A stretch of DNA of 64,000 nt from Clostridiales bacterium (lineage in GTDB: Bacteria > Bacillota > Clostridia > Peptostreptococcales > Acidaminobacteraceae): contig JAFGAC010000194.1 of NCBI GenBank assembly GCA_016933835.1, positions 186,001 through 250,000 of the forward strand, written 5' to 3'. Below, in pieces: positions 8,537 through 20,325 of this stretch. The stretch's first letter is position 1, and every line of letters starts with the position of its first letter. Under the pieces are notes generated by a model. It made no database searches. It saw only the letters and a list, made by a program, of their open reading frames with translations, and had not been told where the DNA came from. Position numbers and translations under genes: made by a program.

Positions 8537-8623
8537 ATATTTCTCCTTTTTGATTTATTTTATCATAAAATTAAATTAATTATATTTTTTTATGGGTACA
8601 TATTTAATTAAAGGAAGCAAAAA

Positions 8624-8632
8624 TGTTATACT
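8624..8632 (+). promoter_or_regulatory. Extended -10 promoter of the signalling operon
   Basis: TGTTATACT (TG at 8624, TATACT at 8627-8632) is an extended -10 element. It lies about 48 bases before the ATG at 8680 in the divergent gap between dapF and the lipoprotein gene. No good -35 is seen, as is usual for extended -10 promoters. It would drive the four genes 8680-13608. Confidence 0.55.
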
Positions 8633-8679
8633 AAAAACGGATAAACATTTGATTTCGTGTGTCTTTTGGGGGAATTAAA

Positions 8680-9774
8680 ATGAAAAGAAAAATCATTTTC
8701 ATCTTGCTGACTGGCCTTTCGTTGCTTACAGCTTGCCAGAAACAAGATACTCTAGTTGTAGGTATCGTCGGCAAATTTTCAGGCGCCAATTCAGATCTTG
8801 GCATCGCCATGTACAACGCTACTTCATTGGCTTTAAGTGAACTCAATAAATCCGGAAGGCATTATGAAAAGATGTACTTCGACATCTCCAACTACGAAAC
8901 ACCTGAATCCCTGTTCCAAGACATTTTGTCTAATGATTTAGATTGCATCATAGGTCCAGATACATCCTCGTATATGGAAAAAATTTATCCCTTAGTTATT
9001 GAAAATGAAATTTTGACATTCGGCACCACTTTATCTGCGGATAATCTATCAAATAAAAGCGATGTTTTTTTCAGACTTATGAATACAACAGAGGAAATGG
9101 CCATGCTAACTGTCAGCTTTGGAATTGATGGATTGAATTTAAAAAACACTTTATTTTTATATGATACCAGCAATGAAGCATTCACAAAACAATATGTAGA
9201 TTATTTTACACAGTATTCTAAGGATTTCATATCAGCAGCGGGCTTCATTCCTCTTGATATGGATTCATTCGGTGATTTAAGTGAAATACTGTTGCTTTAT
9301 GAAAATTATGACTCCATACTTTTGATCACAGATCCTATAAAAACAGGCATCACCATTCAAAAGATCAAAAGAATTTCTCCTCAAATTCCCATTTTGTTGT
9401 CAGCTTGGTCAAATTCTTCGATAACGCTAGAATATATTGGAAACAATACAGAAAATATATATGTTATTTCAAACTTTACTCCCACTAAAAAAGATTCATA
9501 TGAAATTTTTAAACAAAATTATTTTAATAGATATGAAACATATCCTACTGTTGCTTCATACTTTGGTTATGAGATGACTTATTTTATGGATTTCACTTAT
9601 CAAAATACACACTTTTCAGATATCCCTCAAACAATTGACTTTATAGATAGCCTCGACAATTACAGTGGGATATTTTCCGACTACACATTCAACGGTTACG
9701 GTGACGGAAGACATCCGCTGGTCATACAGAAGATTGAAGATGGTCAATTTGTGGAGGTGATCCAAATTGACTAA
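8680..9774 (+). CDS. LivJ-like (type 1 periplasmic-binding fold) lipoprotein
   Basis: 364 residues. The N-terminus is a lipoprotein signal (MKRKIIFILLTG) with lipobox LLTAC, so the mature protein starts at a lipid-modified cysteine outside the membrane. The rest resembles branched-chain amino acid or amide-type binding proteins (VVGIVGKFSGANSDLG, then IIGPDTSSYM, then FFRLMNTTEEMA, and the closing NGYGDGRHPLVIQKIEDG). The ATG at 8680 follows GGGGGAATT; an upstream GTG in the same frame is rejected. No permease or ATPase gene is nearby; the next gene, overlapping by 8 bases, is a sensor kinase. I infer a ligand-capturing sensor subunit rather than a transport component. The ligand is unknown. 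Confidence 0.82.
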   Translation: MKRKIIFILLTGLSLLTACQKQDTLVVGIVGKFSGANSDLGIAMYNATSLALSELNKSGRHYEKMYFDISNYETPESLFQDILSNDLDCIIGPDTSSYMEKIYPLVIENEILTFGTTLSADNLSNKSDVFFRLMNTTEEMAMLTVSFGIDGLNLKNTLFLYDTSNEAFTKQYVDYFTQYSKDFISAAGFIPLDMDSFGDLSEILLLYENYDSILLITDPIKTGITIQKIKRISPQIPILLSAWSNSSITLEYIGNNTENIYVISNFTPTKKDSYEIFKQNYFNRYETYPTVASYFGYEMTYFMDFTYQNTHFSDIPQTIDFIDSLDNYSGIFSDYTFNGYGDGRHPLVIQKIEDGQFVEVIQID

Positions 9775-11476
9775 TAAAAAAACTACTATTTTCAGATATA
9801 TAACTACTCGGATATCAATAATAATGTTAGTTATAACATTATTGATCATTGGCTCCATTTATTATTTTAATTTAAGATCCGTTGTCAATCAAACACTTTA
9901 TTCACTTAATAGTGATGTCAACTACTTTGAATATCTTACAATTGATTTTATGGAAAGAATTAACGAGACCTTCAATAACATCCTTCTTATCACAGATATT
10001 GAAAATGTTCAATTTGAAGATAATCAATTTCTTGAAAAGTTCTTGGCAGAACATGATGAAATAAGTTCATTGACAATTTTAAGCAACGATGGAAAAGTTC
10101 AATTTTCATTCCCTTTTAATAAAACATACATAGGCCTTGATTTTTCAAATTTGAATTTATATAAAAACTCTACTGCTCAAATTCAGTATTCTGACGTTGT
10201 AATCAATAATTTGACTGGCAACCATGAAGTATATCTAACCAATAAAAAACCTTTATACACACTATTGGCATCTTTTATTATTGCAGATGATTTATATGAA
10301 AAATTGGATTTACTGCAAATAGAAGAATTTGATTTGAAAATAATCGACAGAAAAAATACGGTCATGTTTTCAAGCAACAATCGTTACCTTTACAATCAAC
10401 CAAATATTGTAAAAAATACAACGATTTATTTTCAAAACAACGCTTTCCAAGTTTCAACGGTTAAAAATATTTATGGAGAAACACGTTTTTTCATTGAAAG
10501 AAAAGTTGAGCCATTGGGCTGGAGCATTAAATTCAGCGTTAATAAATCTTATTTTAATTCTTTTTACTATCCTACTTATTTAGTAATTGCTTTTATAAGT
10601 ATACTCCTTTTCACATTTATGCTTGCGTTTGTGTATTATTTCAAATTTAAAATAAACAGCCCACTTATTTATCTCAATCATCATTTTGATCAAATTTCAG
10701 AAAAAAAACAGATTCCATTCAATCCACCTGAGAGCTCTTTGATAGAACTCAATGAATTATATGACCATTATGAGAGAATGCATACTAATATCATCGACAG
10801 AGAAAGAGAGCTGAATCAATTTGTTTACATTGCATCTCATGATCTGCAGGAACCACTCAGGATGATTTCAAGCTATATAAAAATACTTGAAATGGAGTAT
10901 TTTCAGGAACTTGATGATGAAGGAAAGAAATATTTCAAATATGTCGTAGATGGTGCTGTAAGAATGAAGACATTGATACAGGATTTACTGCTTTATTCAA
11001 GAGCCGGTGCTGAATATCAAATAAAATCTGTTGACCTCAATACACTTTTTTCGGAAATCATTGAAGAAATGAATATTTCTATCAGTGAAAGCGATGCAAA
11101 CATATCAATAACTCAACTTCCAGTAATAAAAGGAGATAAGGACCGACTGACCCAATTGTTTATGAACCTTTTAAGCAATTCCATAAAATACAGGAAAATA
11201 GACTGCCCATTGACTATAAAAATATATTATGACAATAAAAATAATGAGCTCATCATTCAAGACAACGGCATCGGAGTGGATGAAAAATATTTGGAGGATA
11301 TATTCCTTCCATTTAAGAAATTGCACTCATCAAGTGATTATAGAGGAACAGGAATCGGTCTTGCTATCTGTTCTAAAGTAGCCATTAATCATGGCTGGAA
11401 AATTTATGCGGCATCTTCAGTAGAAGGCGGTTTGATGATTAAAATAAATTTGAACAACAAGGAGGAAAAAAAGTGA
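9767..11476 (+). CDS. Membrane sensor histidine kinase with extracytoplasmic sensor domain
   Basis: 569 residues. TM1 is about 14-34, an extracytoplasmic region about 35-268 (Cache-like by arrangement, not proven), TM2 about 270-292, then a short linker. HisKA follows with the phospho-acceptor H358 in ASHDLQEPLR, then HATPase with N-box NLLSNSIKY (467-475), G1 DNGIGV (499-504) and G2 GTGIGLA (527-533). The HDLQEPLR kinase core is the type found in phytochrome-like kinases, which pair with Rcp1-like receivers; such a receiver is the next gene. The start codon is TTG, supported by GGAGGTGATCC just upstream and by overlap with the preceding stop. It probably senses the liganded lipoprotein. Confidence 0.9.
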   Translation: MTNKKTTIFRYITTRISIIMLVITLLIIGSIYYFNLRSVVNQTLYSLNSDVNYFEYLTIDFMERINETFNNILLITDIENVQFEDNQFLEKFLAEHDEISSLTILSNDGKVQFSFPFNKTYIGLDFSNLNLYKNSTAQIQYSDVVINNLTGNHEVYLTNKKPLYTLLASFIIADDLYEKLDLLQIEEFDLKIIDRKNTVMFSSNNRYLYNQPNIVKNTTIYFQNNAFQVSTVKNIYGETRFFIERKVEPLGWSIKFSVNKSYFNSFYYPTYLVIAFISILLFTFMLAFVYYFKFKINSPLIYLNHHFDQISEKKQIPFNPPESSLIELNELYDHYERMHTNIIDRERELNQFVYIASHDLQEPLRMISSYIKILEMEYFQELDDEGKKYFKYVVDGAVRMKTLIQDLLLYSRAGAEYQIKSVDLNTLFSEIIEEMNISISESDANISITQLPVIKGDKDRLTQLFMNLLSNSIKYRKIDCPLTIKIYYDNKNNELIIQDNGIGVDEKYLEDIFLPFKKLHSSSDYRGTGIGLAICSKVAINHGWKIYAASSVEGGLMIKINLNNKEEKK

Positions 11477-11916
11477 CTAAGAAAAAAATCAATATACTGC
11501 TTATTGAGGATAATCCTGGCGATGTCGACCTTATTTTATACACTTTCAAAAAAAATAGGATCAACAATGAAATAAAAGCCATCACTAGCGGCGAAGAAGC
11601 GCTTGATTTTATATTCAAAAGAAACAATTACGAAAATGCTCTAAGCCCTGACTTGATTATTCTTGATATCAATCTTCCTAAAATCAGCGGCCTTGAAATA
11701 TTAAAAGAGATAAAATCACATTCTGAAACTAAAATGATCCCTACTATCATTCTTACAACGTCCAAATCGGAAATGGATATTCTTACTGCCTATGAAAACT
11801 TTGCAAGTGCCTACGTCGTGAAACCTGTAGAAATTGAAGAGTTCATAGAAACAATTGCTAAACTTGATAACTTCTGGCTTGATATAGTGAAATTACCAAA
11901 TAATAGAGAGAAATAA
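11473..11916 (+). CDS. Rcp1-like single-domain response regulator
   Basis: 147 residues, one receiver domain only. Acidic pocket E12/D13, phospho-acceptor D65 (IILDINLP), T95/T96 and K117 (VVKP) are all present, so it should accept phosphate. The insertion between beta2 and beta3 (FKRNNYENALSPD) is typical of Rcp1-type receivers that partner HDLQEPLR kinases. The GTG start overlaps the kinase stop in GTGA, with GGAGG upstream, so translation is coupled. There is no output domain; it may relay to the next protein or act by protein contact. Confidence 0.9.
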   Translation: MTKKKINILLIEDNPGDVDLILYTFKKNRINNEIKAITSGEEALDFIFKRNNYENALSPDLIILDINLPKISGLEILKEIKSHSETKMIPTIILTTSKSEMDILTAYENFASAYVVKPVEIEEFIETIAKLDNFWLDIVKLPNNREK

Positions 11917-11931
11917 TAAGGGAGTCTTAAT

Positions 11932-13608
11932 ATGACAACAATGAATATTTTAATAATTGAAGATTTGATATCAGACCAAGATCTTCTGCTTTATCATCTA
12001 AACAGAATAAAAACATTTCACACAAAAGCAAACATTTCAGAGACAATGAAATCAGCGGAAGAGGCATTGAAAACTTCTCATTATGATGCCATTCTACTGG
12101 ATCTGAACTTGCCGGATTCAAGTGCAATCAATACATTGAACAAAATCCTGAAAACATACAGAAATATTCCAACAATTATCATGACCACTTCAGATCCTGA
12201 ACTGGAGAAACAGGCTATTCAACTAGGAGCCCAAGATTTCCTCGATAAACATCATCTTGATAGTAGAATACTTGAAAAATCGATTTTATTTTCCATAGAG
12301 AGGCAAAAATTTATGGAGAATTTACTCAATCTGTCTTTTATAGACCCTATAACAAATCAATATAATTTCAAATTTCTGATGGAAACCTACAATAATATTT
12401 ATCGCAACATTCCGAAAGATTTTATATTAAGTTTATATCTAATAGACATCAGAAATTTTAATGAATTCAATTTGTCTTTCGGCCATGAATTGGGTGATGC
12501 TCTCCTTACAGATATAGGCATCAAGCTCAAAAACATCCCATACAATCATTACTTCTTTTTGGCACGGGGGTCCGGCACTCAATATTATCTCTTGACTATT
12601 CAAAATTATGTTGATTTAAAATCTGAAATTACTTCGTCTAAATTGACTGAATCACTTATGAAAGATTTTAAATGTGCTGACAATTTTGTTCATATCAATT
12701 TCAAAATTACTCGCACTGATGTCTTCAGTCACAAAACTACCCTTCATGATTTGATCAACGAATGTGAATTTGCGTTGCATGAAATTAAATTAAACGATGA
12801 TATTCATTATAATATCTATCATCCAGAACTCAACAAAAGATTAAATAGAAAAAGGCTCATAGGTAAACATTTATCAAAATCAATAGAAAAAAATGAGCTT
12901 TATCTCGTCTACCAACCTGTCGTCAATATTGAGAATGAAAACATTGATTTTTGTGAAACCCGTATACGTTGGAATTGCAAAGATTTAGGTTTTCCTGTAT
13001 ATCCAGATGAATTCATTCCAATAGCTGAAGAAACTGGTTTCATAAAAAATATAGGCTTATTTGTAATAAGTACCGCCATTGACAATTATGAATTTTTTAA
13101 AAAACATTCTATAATTGTTTCAATCAATTTATCAGTCAATGAACTTGACCAAAAGGATTTTGCCCAAAATGTAATCGATCTCTTTGAACTTTCCGTTGCT
13201 TTACCTCAACAATATGTCTTTGAAATAACTGAACACACACAATTCATAGACAGTTTAAATGTTCACAGAAATATCTATCAGTTGATTGAGTATGGTTTCA
13301 CTTTCTCCATTGATGATTTTGGAACTGGTTATTCAACATTTCAGCAGATTGCAAGGTTCAGTGGCAGCATCATCAAAATAGACAAAAGCTTTATTCAAGA
13401 TATTGAAATAGACAATTACAATAAAGCTATCATTTCTGCCATCGCAAACATGGGAAAAACACTTGGCATAACTGTTGTTGCAGAAGGTGTTGAAACCTTA
13501 TCGCAGCTAAATGCACTTCGCACAATGAATATTAATTATATTCAAGGATATTATTTCTATAAGCCAATGGTATTTGAAAATTTAAAAAATATAAAAGAGT
13601 CTGTCTAG
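11932..13608 (+). CDS. Response regulator: receiver - degenerate GGDEF - EAL c-di-GMP phosphodiesterase
   Basis: 558 residues. Receiver about 1-125 with D57 (ILLDLNLP) and K106. GGDEF-like domain about 135-300 in which the signature is replaced by GSGTQ (213-217), so no cyclase activity is expected. EAL domain about 305-555 with E342 (ETRIRW in place of EALLRW), N399, E431, D461/D462 (DDFGTGYS), K482, E521 and Q538 all in place, so c-di-GMP hydrolysis is likely. The gene starts 15 bases after the receiver gene, with GGGAG before the ATG. As the last gene of the operon it is the likely output: phosphorylation would adjust the c-di-GMP level. Domain assignment is firm; activity is inferred from residues. 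Confidence 0.9.
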   Translation: MTTMNILIIEDLISDQDLLLYHLNRIKTFHTKANISETMKSAEEALKTSHYDAILLDLNLPDSSAINTLNKILKTYRNIPTIIMTTSDPELEKQAIQLGAQDFLDKHHLDSRILEKSILFSIERQKFMENLLNLSFIDPITNQYNFKFLMETYNNIYRNIPKDFILSLYLIDIRNFNEFNLSFGHELGDALLTDIGIKLKNIPYNHYFFLARGSGTQYYLLTIQNYVDLKSEITSSKLTESLMKDFKCADNFVHINFKITRTDVFSHKTTLHDLINECEFALHEIKLNDDIHYNIYHPELNKRLNRKRLIGKHLSKSIEKNELYLVYQPVVNIENENIDFCETRIRWNCKDLGFPVYPDEFIPIAEETGFIKNIGLFVISTAIDNYEFFKKHSIIVSINLSVNELDQKDFAQNVIDLFELSVALPQQYVFEITEHTQFIDSLNVHRNIYQLIEYGFTFSIDDFGTGYSTFQQIARFSGSIIKIDKSFIQDIEIDNYNKAIISAIANMGKTLGITVVAEGVETLSQLNALRTMNINYIQGYYFYKPMVFENLKNIKESV

Positions 13609-13616
13609 ATTATAAA

Positions 13617-13672
13617 ATGATTCCCCTTAAGTGGATTTTGCTTATTTGCCTTGTATTTTTGAGGGGAATCAT
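13617..13672. repeat. 14-bp inverted repeat with 28-nt spacer after the EAL gene
   Basis: The left arm at 13617-13630 (ATGATTCCCCTTAA) pairs with the right arm at 13659-13672, giving 13 Watson-Crick pairs and one G-T pair. No T-run follows on either strand, so it is a poor Rho-independent terminator. It could still end or stabilise the upstream transcript. No second copy was noticed in the window. Confidence 0.55.
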
Positions 13673-13676
13673 ATCA

Positions 13677-13706
13677 TTGTTGGATAGTCTCTTTTTATGT
13701 TATAAT
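13677..13706 (+). promoter_or_regulatory. Promoter of rqcH
   Basis: TTGTTG (13677-13682), an 18-base spacer and TATAAT (13701-13706), with TG at the extended -10 position. It lies 22 bases before the rqcH start codon. Confidence 0.7.
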
Positions 13707-13728
13707 TGTATCTATTGAGGTGATTCAT

Positions 13729-16969: not shown

Positions 16970-19900
16970 CTATATTCTCTCGAGGAATATTTTTGTATCA
17001 TGTCCATTTAAATTATGTTCTTCATAATTATGATCTTCAAGTGCATTTATTTCAACAGCCAATGTCTCATCCTTGATGTATTCATCAAATGTTCTGATCG
17101 CTTTTGTCAATTCATCAGATGATTCAAAGTAAATTTTTATGTGGTCAGCAACCTCGAAATCATTGCTCTTTCTCATCTGCTGTACTCTGGAAATGAATTC
17201 TCTTGCATACCCTTCATTGACTAGCTCTTCAGTCAAAGTCGTATCCAAAATGATAAAAACATTGTTTTCCATTTGTACAGTAAATCCTTCTTTTGATTCA
17301 ATATTGACAACCAATTGATCATTGGTTAATTCGATTGTCTTTTCGTCACTCAGCACAATTGAAACTTTTTCACCCTTATTGAATTTATCAACAACTTCGC
17401 TTGGATCTAATGTCGCAAGCACTTTAGAGAACAAACCCATGTCTTTTCCTAAGATTGGTCCTAATTCTCTAAAATTCGGTTTTAAACTGAAGTTCATATA
17501 TTCATTTACATTATCAATGAATCCAACTTCTTTTACATTTAACTCTTCCATTAATAATGGCGACAAGTCTTCTATCATTTCTTTGTTTTTTCCATCAATG
17601 TAAACCTTTTGAATCGGTTGTCTTACCTTGATTTTAACAGATTCTCTCGCTGCCCTTCCAAGCCCTACAAGAGTTCTGACCAAATCCATTCTATTTTCAA
17701 TCTTTTCATTGATCAGACTTTCATCAACCACTGGATACTTCGCTAGATGAACTGACTTATCTCCAGTAAGATTTCTATAAATTTCTTCCGAAATATAAGG
17801 CGTAAACGGAGCAATCAATTTAGAAATATCAACTAAAACTTCATAGGTTGTATTGTAGACTGATTTTTTATCCTGATCCATTTCTGTGCTCCAGAATCTT
17901 CTTCGGCTTCTTCTGATATACCAATTAGATAAATCTTCATTGACAAAATCTTGGATTTTTCTCACTGCTTTTGTCAAATCATATTCATTCAAATCACTCG
18001 TTACATTTTTTATCAAACTGCTCAGCTTAGATAATACCCATTGGTCAAGTTCTGGTCTTTCTTTTGGTTGAACATAAAAATCAGTTGCCTTCACATTATC
18101 CATGTTTGCATACATTGTAAAGAAATTATAAACATTTTGAAGTGTTCTGAAGAATTTACTGTTTACTTCTTTAAGTCCTTCTTCATCAAACTTGGTCGGT
18201 GCCCATGCAGGTGAAACATAATTAAGATACCATCTGACAACATCAGCGCCATAGCGGTCGAACAGATCAAATGAATCTACTGTATTGCCTTTTGTTTTCG
18301 ACATTTTCTTTCCATCTTTATCTAATAGCAAATCATTTACCAATACGTTCTTATATGGTGATTTACCTGTAACAAAAGTAGAAATTGCCAATAATGAATA
18401 GAACCAGCCGCGTGTCTGATCAATTCCTTCACAAATATAGTCTGCAGGAAATAATTGATCAAAATCTTCTTTGTGTTCAAATGGGTAGTGATATTGGGCA
18501 AAAGGCATTGCTCCTGAGTCAAACCAAACGTCAATAACTTCAGGTACTCTTGTCATGATCCCACCGCATTTGTCACATTTCAAATGAACATCATCAACAT
18601 ACGGTCTGTGAAGTTCAATCGTTTCATCAATTGATTCAATCGCTCTCTCGGTCAATTCTTTAATAGATCCCACTGAAGCCTTATGACCACATTCACATCT
18701 CCAGATATTTAGAGGAGTTCCCCAATATCTATTTCTTGAAATCGCCCAATCATTTAAATTTTCAAGCCAATTTCCAAATCTCTTTTCACCGACATATTCT
18801 GGATACCAATTGACTGTTTTATTGTTTTCAATCAATTTATCTTTAAGTTTTGTAATTTCAATATACCAGCTTGGCTTTGCAGAATAAAGAAGTGGTGTCT
18901 TACATCTCCAGCAATGAGGATAATTATGTTCCATTTTTTGCTTTTTATATAATTTTCCTTCTTCTCTCAACCATTGAACAATTTCAGGATCTGCATCAAT
19001 GACAAATGTTCCTTTCCAAGGTGTTTCAGTATATTTACCATCTTCATCTACTGGTTGAGGAACAGGTAAATCATATTTTCTTCCAGTATGGTAATCATCT
19101 TCACCAAAAGCAGGTGCCGTATGCACAATACCTGTTCCGTCTCCAGTTGTTACATAATCTCCTAGTGTAACAAAGAAAGCTTTTTTATCTATTTTTAGGA
19201 ATGGCATCAATTGCTCATATTCCACGTATTCTAATTCTGCCCCTAAAAATTCATCGATAACTTCATAATCATCAGACAATACTTCCTTTGCAAGATTTTT
19301 TTCAAGAATATAAGTTGTCCCATTTTCCACAACTCTCAAATACGTTTCTTTAGGATTAACAGTCAATGCGACGTTTGAAGCAAGCGTCCATGGTGTTGTT
19401 GTCCATACTAGGAAATACTCATCTCTGTCTTTTCTTTTAAATTTAACATAAACTGTTTCTGTTTTTACTTCCTGATAGCCGAGTGCAACTTCATGTGATG
19501 CCAGCCCTGTTCCGCAACGTGCACAATATGGCAGAATTTTATGACCTTCATAAACATATCCTTCTTCAAAAAACTTGTTGAGGATCCACCATACTGATTC
19601 TATATATTCATTGCTTAGAGTAATATAAGGATCATCCATATCAACTAAATATGCCATTCTTTCTGTTTGTTCACGCCATGCCGCTTCATATACAAACACA
19701 GAATCACGACATTGTTTATTAAAAGCTTCAATACCATATTTCTCTATATCTTGTTTATTGGATAATTTCAATTTTTTCTCTACTTCAATTTCAACTGGCA
19801 ATCCATGTGTATCCCAACCTGCTTTTCTTTTTACTTGAAAGCCTTCCATTGTTTTAAATCGACAGACTGAGTCCTTCAATGATCTTGCAACTACATGATG

Positions 19901-20065
19901 CAGTCCCGGACGACCATTTGCTGTAGGAGGACCGTCATAAAACACAAAATTGGGTCCATCTTTTCTTGTCTCTACACTTTGATGCAATAAATCAATCTCT
20001 TTCCAGTAAATCGAAAATTCCTGTTCTCTTTCTTTATTGCTTTTTTTATTTAATTCTTTATACAT
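16970..20065 (-). CDS. ileS: Isoleucyl-tRNA synthetase, long (type 2-like) form
   Basis: 1031 residues from MYKELNKKS. Class I synthetase charging tRNA-Ile. It has PPTANGRPGLHHVVAR at the HIGH position, a CP1 editing domain (VWTTTPWTLASN), zinc-type cysteine pairs (CWRCKTP, CECGH, CDKC), KMSKTKGN at the KMSKS position and an anticodon-binding C-terminal region. The length and the altered HIGH and KMSKS segments resemble the IleS2 group, which is often mupirocin-tolerant; that property is inferred from group membership. The frame is open 30 codons further upstream, into the T-box antiterminator, and that extension is rejected. Expression is controlled by the T-box leader at 20066-20325. Confidence 0.95.
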   Translation of the reverse strand: MYKELNKKSNKEREQEFSIYWKEIDLLHQSVETRKDGPNFVFYDGPPTANGRPGLHHVVARSLKDSVCRFKTMEGFQVKRKAGWDTHGLPVEIEVEKKLKLSNKQDIEKYGIEAFNKQCRDSVFVYEAAWREQTERMAYLVDMDDPYITLSNEYIESVWWILNKFFEEGYVYEGHKILPYCARCGTGLASHEVALGYQEVKTETVYVKFKRKDRDEYFLVWTTTPWTLASNVALTVNPKETYLRVVENGTTYILEKNLAKEVLSDDYEVIDEFLGAELEYVEYEQLMPFLKIDKKAFFVTLGDYVTTGDGTGIVHTAPAFGEDDYHTGRKYDLPVPQPVDEDGKYTETPWKGTFVIDADPEIVQWLREEGKLYKKQKMEHNYPHCWRCKTPLLYSAKPSWYIEITKLKDKLIENNKTVNWYPEYVGEKRFGNWLENLNDWAISRNRYWGTPLNIWRCECGHKASVGSIKELTERAIESIDETIELHRPYVDDVHLKCDKCGGIMTRVPEVIDVWFDSGAMPFAQYHYPFEHKEDFDQLFPADYICEGIDQTRGWFYSLLAISTFVTGKSPYKNVLVNDLLLDKDGKKMSKTKGNTVDSFDLFDRYGADVVRWYLNYVSPAWAPTKFDEEGLKEVNSKFFRTLQNVYNFFTMYANMDNVKATDFYVQPKERPELDQWVLSKLSSLIKNVTSDLNEYDLTKAVRKIQDFVNEDLSNWYIRRSRRRFWSTEMDQDKKSVYNTTYEVLVDISKLIAPFTPYISEEIYRNLTGDKSVHLAKYPVVDESLINEKIENRMDLVRTLVGLGRAARESVKIKVRQPIQKVYIDGKNKEMIEDLSPLLMEELNVKEVGFIDNVNEYMNFSLKPNFRELGPILGKDMGLFSKVLATLDPSEVVDKFNKGEKVSIVLSDEKTIELTNDQLVVNIESKEGFTVQMENNVFIILDTTLTEELVNEGYAREFISRVQQMRKSNDFEVADHIKIYFESSDELTKAIRTFDEYIKDETLAVEINALEDHNYEEHNLNGHDTKIFLERI

Positions 20066-20325
20066 TCCTTCACCCCTTATAATAAATAAAAAATCCCTAT
20101 ACATACGTATAGGGACGAATTTTCTCCGCGGTACCACCCTGCTTATTGAAAGCACAATCTCTTCATGATTGGATAACGGTCATCAACCGGTATTTGCTAC
20201 TTGCTTTCACAAAACTGCTCAGGAGTGATTTTCATACTTTTAAACTATCGATTTCCACCTGCCATCGACTCTCTAAAAAATTTAAATTGTACTATTCTTC
20301 TCCATCAAAGCATTTACTGAATTTA
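20066..20325 (-). ncRNA. T-box riboswitch leader of ileS (specifier AUC)
   Basis: On the minus strand the conserved T-box sequence AGGGTGGTACCGCGG lies at 20126-20140. It is followed by a terminator stem (20094-20102 with 20107-20115) and a T-run. Upstream, the segment AATCACTCCTGAG places an isoleucine AUC codon at 20227-20229, in the usual specifier position of Stem I, and GATGGAGAAGAA lies near the 5' end. Uncharged tRNA-Ile should stabilise the antiterminator and switch on ileS. Boundaries are approximate; the 5' end is inferred from the promoter. Confidence 0.95.

Follow-up and report, generated by a model that had tools for sequence, protein, structure and literature searches.

A transporter-free LivJ-like lipoprotein family linked to double-Cache receptors, and a clostridial cassette that may couple one member to c-di-GMP

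The strongest and most general result of this analysis lies outside the window, as we call the 64,000-nucleotide stretch of a Clostridiales genome that was analysed: it is the conserved pairing of LivJ-like lipoproteins with membrane receptors that have a double Cache ectodomain. Inside the window, a lipoprotein gene is followed by genes for a histidine kinase, a stand-alone receiver and a receiver-GGDEF-EAL protein, and the four products probably make up a three-component sensor with c-di-GMP output.

All four genes were found on the forward strand where the initial annotation had located them. The first (8680..9774) encodes a solute-binding protein of LivJ fold of 364 aa; the second (9767..11476), a membrane histidine kinase of 569 aa, composed of a transmembrane segment (TM1), a double-Cache-type ectodomain, TM2, a short linker and the HisKA and HATPase domains; the third (11473..11916), an Rcp1-type stand-alone receiver of 147 aa (REC1); and the fourth (11932..13608), a protein of 558 aa with a receiver (REC), a degenerate GGDEF and an EAL domain. 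The lipoprotein starts at ATG 8680 behind GGGGG, the GTG at 8659 merely lengthening the open reading frame mechanically. The kinase starts at TTG 9767, overlapping the lipoprotein stop by 8 nt, with GGAGGTGAT upstream inside the lipoprotein gene, where its Shine-Dalgarno sequence is located, and REC1 starts at GTG 11473 behind AAGGAGG, overlapping the kinase stop by 4 nt. The translational coupling proposed earlier for the set agrees with these two overlaps; at the last junction, ATG 11932 follows REC1 after a gap of 15 nt, which is close without being an overlap. The four genes form a tight operon, flanked by the divergent dapF upstream and the gene of an NFACT protein downstream. The leader (8590..8679, forward strand), divergent from dapF, contains a possible TATACT -10 element near 8627 and the GGGGG ribosome-binding site; a sigma-70 scan gave no match in it. 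Behind the last gene, a hairpin at 13617..13672 on the forward strand (15 pairs with a long loop, RNA fold -25.8 kcal/mol, z -3.5) is the likely transcript end of the cassette; a T-run directly behind it is absent and a simple terminator scan was negative. An Rfam search found nothing within the cassette. Elsewhere in the window, a T-box leader on the reverse strand (20108-20317, Rfam 136.7 bits) overlaps the start of, and reads into, a 1061-aa open reading frame (16970-20155).

We propose that the lipoprotein, anchored outside the membrane, would bind a small molecule, probably a carboxylate other than a standard α-amino acid, and that, loaded or empty, it would dock on the double Cache ectodomain of the kinase and set the kinase activity. 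The kinase would phosphorylate the receiver of the REC-GGDEF-EAL protein as well as REC1, which may take up surplus phosphate as a sink, act as a buffer or provide a second output. In the REC-GGDEF-EAL protein, phosphorylation might alter the rate at which the EAL domain hydrolyses c-di-GMP, the degenerate GGDEF domain being a putative regulatory module. The proteins reading the change in c-di-GMP would be a flagellar PilZ protein of YcgR type and a cellulose synthase with a PilZ domain. The ligand may in this way bias the cell between swimming and cellulose production. A relay from lipoprotein through kinase to phosphodiesterase had been put forward in the initial annotation, and the genomic context (linkage, a recurring relay and effectors) supports it.

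The kinase has two transmembrane segments (8-37 and 265-294), with the ectodomain between them (residues ~40-262), and retains its H-box (SHDLQEPL at 357) and its N, G1 and G2 boxes. In Pfam it matches HisKA (2.1e-12) and HATPase (1.6e-19), and weakly dCache_1 (0.0035, below the cut-off); its core matches the histidine kinase 8f71 (2.6e-36) and bacteriophytochromes (1e-19 to 1e-17). The ectodomain model, which is of low confidence (pLDDT 50), matches KinD and other tandem Cache domains, and in a leave-one-out comparison the ectodomain scores 67.7 bits (4.4e-20) with the Cache-receptor profile. By these comparisons the sensor is clearly a Cache domain and, by homology, a double one, though divergent. 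Ordinary Cache receptors score 101-116 bits with the partner-receptor profile, above the window kinase, so the partnership of lipoprotein and kinase rests on gene order and on the clade of the lipoprotein. A placement of the kinase within the partner-receptor subfamily was dropped on account of the same score.

The phosphorylation residues are retained in both receivers. REC1 (Response_reg, 1.7e-19) has its phospho-Asp in LDINLP and keeps the acidic pair, Thr and Lys; RCP1, RcpA and RcpB are among its closest solved relatives (1e-27 to 1e-25), which, with the bacteriophytochrome matches of the kinase, bears out the Rcp1-like receiver and phytochrome-type kinase core noted at the outset. The last protein shows all three of the domains ascribed to it (Pfam EAL 7.8e-61, REC 7e-13, GGDEF 3.2e-10). 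Its GGDEF motif reads GSGTQ in place of the GG(D/E)EF cyclase signature, and by motif the domain is predicted to be dead. The GGDEF-EAL part aligns over 118-552 with the phosphodiesterase DosP (4e-44), and the aligned EAL residues comprise YQP, the E of ETR, the Arg, the N of INLS, the E of EITE and DDFGTG, as well as the K of IKIDK, the E of AEGVE and the Q of IQGY. The protein is predicted to break down c-di-GMP. Nevertheless, the EAL motif reads ETR (ETRIR) where ExLxR is expected, with Glu and Arg kept and Leu replaced by Arg, whereas all comparators that cover the motif have Leu in third position and none shows ETR. This replacement of EAL/EVL could mean that hydrolysis is lost, in which case the same sensor would act on an EAL protein serving as a phosphorylation-gated c-di-GMP receptor or adaptor, as the likewise degenerate GGDEF domain might also suggest. 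We consider this unlikely, given that the remaining catalytic and metal residues align with DosP and that the leading Glu, which known dead EALs such as LapD do not keep, is retained.

A change in c-di-GMP has plausible readers in the host genome, at flagella and cellulose. The genome has 23 GGDEF genes and four EAL genes, one of the latter divided between two frames. It encodes two PilZ proteins, namely a YcgR-type protein (PilZNR + PilZ), whose gene is flanked by those of a MinD/FlhG-like ATPase and of a FliA/WhiG sigma factor, and a cellulose synthase with a PilZ domain. The coding sequence of one GGDEF-EAL protein of this genome, at locus L123 (C82:15670-16909), is broken across two frames, which is either a recent pseudogene or an assembly error.

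The cassette was, most simply, gained as one unit in the lineage of the window. Compared with eight related genomes, a segment of approximately 8580..13690 is missing from the dapF-NFACT intergenic region of the relatives, in which dapF and NFACT are directly adjacent, ~150-204 nt apart (G001, G002, G004, G032, G033, G038, G039 and G040). In the nearest relative, G004, whose dapF and NFACT are 62% and 63% identical to those of the window, the intergenic region shares a promoter-like box, TTTTTATG.TATAATTG, with the window just before NFACT (~13692-13708). The empty site in the relatives and the box kept in G004 suggest that the whole transcription unit was gained together. The surroundings of the cassette showed neither a mobile-element gene nor a clear target duplication, and nothing in its GC content points to a foreign origin. 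Other genes occupy the dapF-NFACT interval in a further genome, G028, among them one for a 765-aa protein with repeated SSNGNLTPEEIEKLI units (L167:8798-11095, reverse strand).

The lipoprotein has a lipobox (LTAC, Cys19) and matches Peripla_BP_6 (E=2.5e-12, 47.6 bits, cut-off 31.7); the closest folds to its AF2 model (pLDDT 79, pTM 0.82) are LivJ 4gnr and LivK 3td9. No transporter genes were found near the cassette, and its earlier description as a LivJ-like lipoprotein without a transporter therefore holds. It shares fold and Pfam family with the branched-chain amino-acid binding proteins LivJ and LivK, but has neither the LivH/LivM permease and ATPases nor the acidic residue of a LivJ-type transport protein. 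The clade signature consists of Trp243, Asn56, Asn165, Asp128 and Asp342, all present in the window protein. Trp243 occurs in 38 of 38 aligned members (33 receptor-linked rows and 5 receptor-less or convergent rows) and in none of 22 transport LivJ proteins, which have Gly, Thr or Ala there instead. Just before this position, 21 of the 22 transport proteins have Asp, and proteins of the signalling kind mostly have Ala, Leu, Thr or Met. The window lipoprotein has Ala, the acidic residue of the transport type being lost, and the exchange is equally visible when HMMER aligns the protein to 4gnr and 3td9. We take this region to correspond to the part of the E. coli Leu/Ile/Val protein in which a glutamate holds the α-ammonium group. 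Ser96, Thr117 and Ser119, at the Ser/Thr positions of the carboxylate site, are retained. From the lost acidic site and these retained residues, we infer a ligand that has a carboxylate and is probably not a standard α-amino acid.

In a maximum-likelihood tree, the signalling and transport kinds split at 99/96, with the LivH-linked relatives on the opposite side of this branch from the kind of the window lipoprotein. The window protein has a long branch (2.62) that attaches near the split, on a side that depends on rooting, so that its assignment to the signalling kind is carried by the profile scores (208 bits for the signalling kind versus 123 bits for the transport kind, leave-one-out) and by the residue signature. 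On these two grounds, the window lipoprotein is grouped with LivJ homologues of Bacillota that are separate from the transport proteins. Several relatives (L036, L043, L048, L049 and others) are without the lipobox Cys and seemingly keep an N-terminal membrane anchor.

Relatives were sought in 41 family, 395 order, 391 class and 399 phylum genomes, these sets overlapping, and lipoproteins were found at 20-27% identity; a plasmid search gave matches at 20-22% only. As a single query, the lipoprotein found no relative in the genome contig collection, and an alignment of three lipoproteins found 16 loci there, eight of them useful. Two kinds can be told apart by neighbourhood: proteins resembling the LivJ of this genome, mostly followed by LivH, and proteins resembling the window lipoprotein, followed by a membrane receptor. 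Homologues beside permease genes had been named in the initial annotation as the pattern that would speak against a sensory role, and the proposal withstood this check. A LivH-type permease is present in the lipoprotein operon in none of the 36 loci, and a receptor adjoins the lipoprotein in 31 of them (the window and 30 others), about nine of which are close relatives (Acetobacterium and kin), making the independent cases fewer; L041 is a convergent case. Five loci (L034, L037, L040, L042 and L046) are without a receptor. Two of these, L040 and L046, were considered as transport operons and rejected, since no permease was seen and the nearby ABC ATPase is of MalK type and accompanied by a PucR regulator. 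As for the co-occurrence of all four genes in other Clostridia, it is the lipoprotein-receptor pair that recurs without LivH, whereas the exact four-gene set is found only in this genome, with no orthologous cassette in the family, order, class and phylum sets or the genome contigs.

By Pfam and profile searches, the receptor neighbours typically share the double Cache ectodomain and differ in their outputs. These are a HisKA or HisKA_2 kinase (L033, L036, L043-L045, L050, L081, L097, L100, L101), a hybrid kinase (L035, L038, L039, L096), HD-GYP (L047) or GGDEF-EAL (L048, L049, L079, L080, and the Acetobacterium-type L093, L095 and L104-L111), and a c-di-GMP enzyme is involved in ~21 of the 31 receptor-linked loci, about two thirds. 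In L096, L100 and L101, the kinase is paired with a receiver-GGDEF-HD-GYP protein, which by domain content is the logic of the window with another predicted phosphodiesterase, HD-GYP in place of EAL. L038 and L039 have a receiver-GGDEF-HD-GYP protein and a further kinase, L038 also a single receiver. Four tandem lipoprotein paralogues precede a single double-Cache kinase in L036 (6037-10579, reverse strand), and three do so in L081 (6185-9600, reverse strand), which suggests several ligands feeding one receptor. In Acetobacterium, a gene of ~334 aa lies close behind the pair of lipoprotein and dCache-GGDEF-EAL protein (L095:10372-11373, where it overlaps; L105:9553-10557), with equivalents in L104, L106-L108, L110 and L093; it is PdxA-like in the two cases tested, L105 included, which hints at a sugar-acid ligand.

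Reciprocally, the ectodomain profile was searched in the 41 family genomes and gave 16 matches of at least 170 bits, the next match having 123 bits. Fourteen of the 16 adjoin a lipoprotein, twelve of these 14 having built the profile; of the four outside it, L038 and L039 adjoin a lipoprotein and L126 and L127 do not. Six weaker matches were checked, none with a lipoprotein neighbour. The genome of L127 carries an unlinked lipoprotein (L040) with an in-frame stop. The distances of lipoproteins and ectodomains are correlated (Mantel r 0.67 over the full set, 0.34 once the window and near-copies are left out), and shared ancestry accounts for part of this correlation.

The double Cache domain might sense the ligand directly, the lipoprotein being a co-regulated scavenger or ligand buffer without any contact with the kinase; small-molecule binding is common in Cache domains, and the subfamily receptors L126 (5240-7198) and L127 (4068-5966) stand without a lipoprotein. 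However, the linkage holds in distant taxa and with widely differing outputs, the divergence of the two partners being correlated, and the RxWY amino-acid motif is absent from all 23 receptors. Binding has been shown for a known pair of such neighbours (PMC10384115), and direct sensing by the kinase seems to us quite improbable. That the lipoprotein is an orphan transport subunit of a LivHMGF permease encoded elsewhere, its place beside the kinase being coincidental, is suggested by its fold and by the one LivJ-LivH locus elsewhere in the genome, but it is extremely improbable, since the only other Peripla_BP_6 gene is the true LivJ next to that LivH, LivH-type permeases are absent from the operons of the clade members, transport LivJ proteins lie across the 99/96 branch with a different ligand site, and the cassette genes overlap and were apparently gained jointly at one site.

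A three-component sensor with c-di-GMP output, as we propose, combines features of several known systems. The kinase core and REC1 are of the Cph1-Rcp1 type, with a membrane Cache sensor in place of a phytochrome, and the GGDEF-EAL half is similar to that of DosP, with REC in place of the heme PAS. LuxP-LuxQ and TorT-TorS each have a binding protein that docks on the kinase ectodomain, as proposed here, but the binding-protein families are others, the kinases are hybrid and the outputs are transcriptional or sRNA-based. MbaA of Vibrio is itself a membrane GGDEF-EAL protein, and its partner NspS belongs to a different binding-protein family. The likeness of NspS-MbaA (Sobe et al. 2017) to the cassette, as the system is referred to in PMC11113362, is that a transporter-free binding protein controls a c-di-GMP phosphodiesterase. 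The Acetobacterium relatives, with their lipoprotein and dCache-GGDEF-EAL protein, share the direct layout of NspS-MbaA, whereas the window inserts a phosphorelay. XylFII-LytS, which serves clostridial xylose sensing, has a transcriptional output and differs in binding-protein family and ectodomain. As in the cassette, a dedicated extracellular binding protein is paired with a sensor kinase; the XylFII-LytS complex contains two copies of each, as cited in PMC10384115. Closest is CuaDSR of Ruminiclostridium cellulolyticum, a clostridial three-component system with a lipoprotein binding protein, a two-TM histidine kinase and a response regulator in the same gene order, in which CuaD binds CuaS by contacting the kinase ectodomain (PMC10384115). 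CuaDSR differs in its cellobiose binding protein, an ectodomain without a predicted domain, a transcriptional output and a linked cellobiose transporter; the cassette has a LivJ fold, a Cache ectodomain, two receivers, a predicted c-di-GMP output and no transporter. The designation as a new system was therefore too strong, binding-protein-assisted three-component systems being already established in clostridia (PMC10384115), as is the activation of kinases, c-di-GMP enzymes and chemoreceptors by binding proteins in general (PMC11113362, PMC9602780); gene neighbours make up 10 of 11 characterised binding-protein/kinase pairs (PMC11113362). What is new is the dedicated lipoprotein-receptor family: no description of the Trp-bearing LivJ-like lipoproteins or their Cache partners was found in the open-access literature.

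On balance, we lean towards the view that transporter-free LivJ-derived lipoproteins across Bacillota are detachable ligand-binding subunits of double-Cache receptors whose outputs are freely swapped and mostly feed c-di-GMP, with some receptors stacking three or four lipoproteins and the window representing a divergent phosphorelay version gained as one cassette. Stacked lipoproteins on one receptor, if real, would amount to combinatorial sensing. Most Cache-type kinases and c-di-GMP enzymes are without a known signal, for which mediation by binding proteins has been proposed as a partial explanation (PMC12415202, PMC11113362). A family that can be recognised by a single signature residue and a fixed gene order would show which lipoprotein to co-purify with which receptor, and mediation by such lipoproteins could explain failed screens of receptor domains alone.
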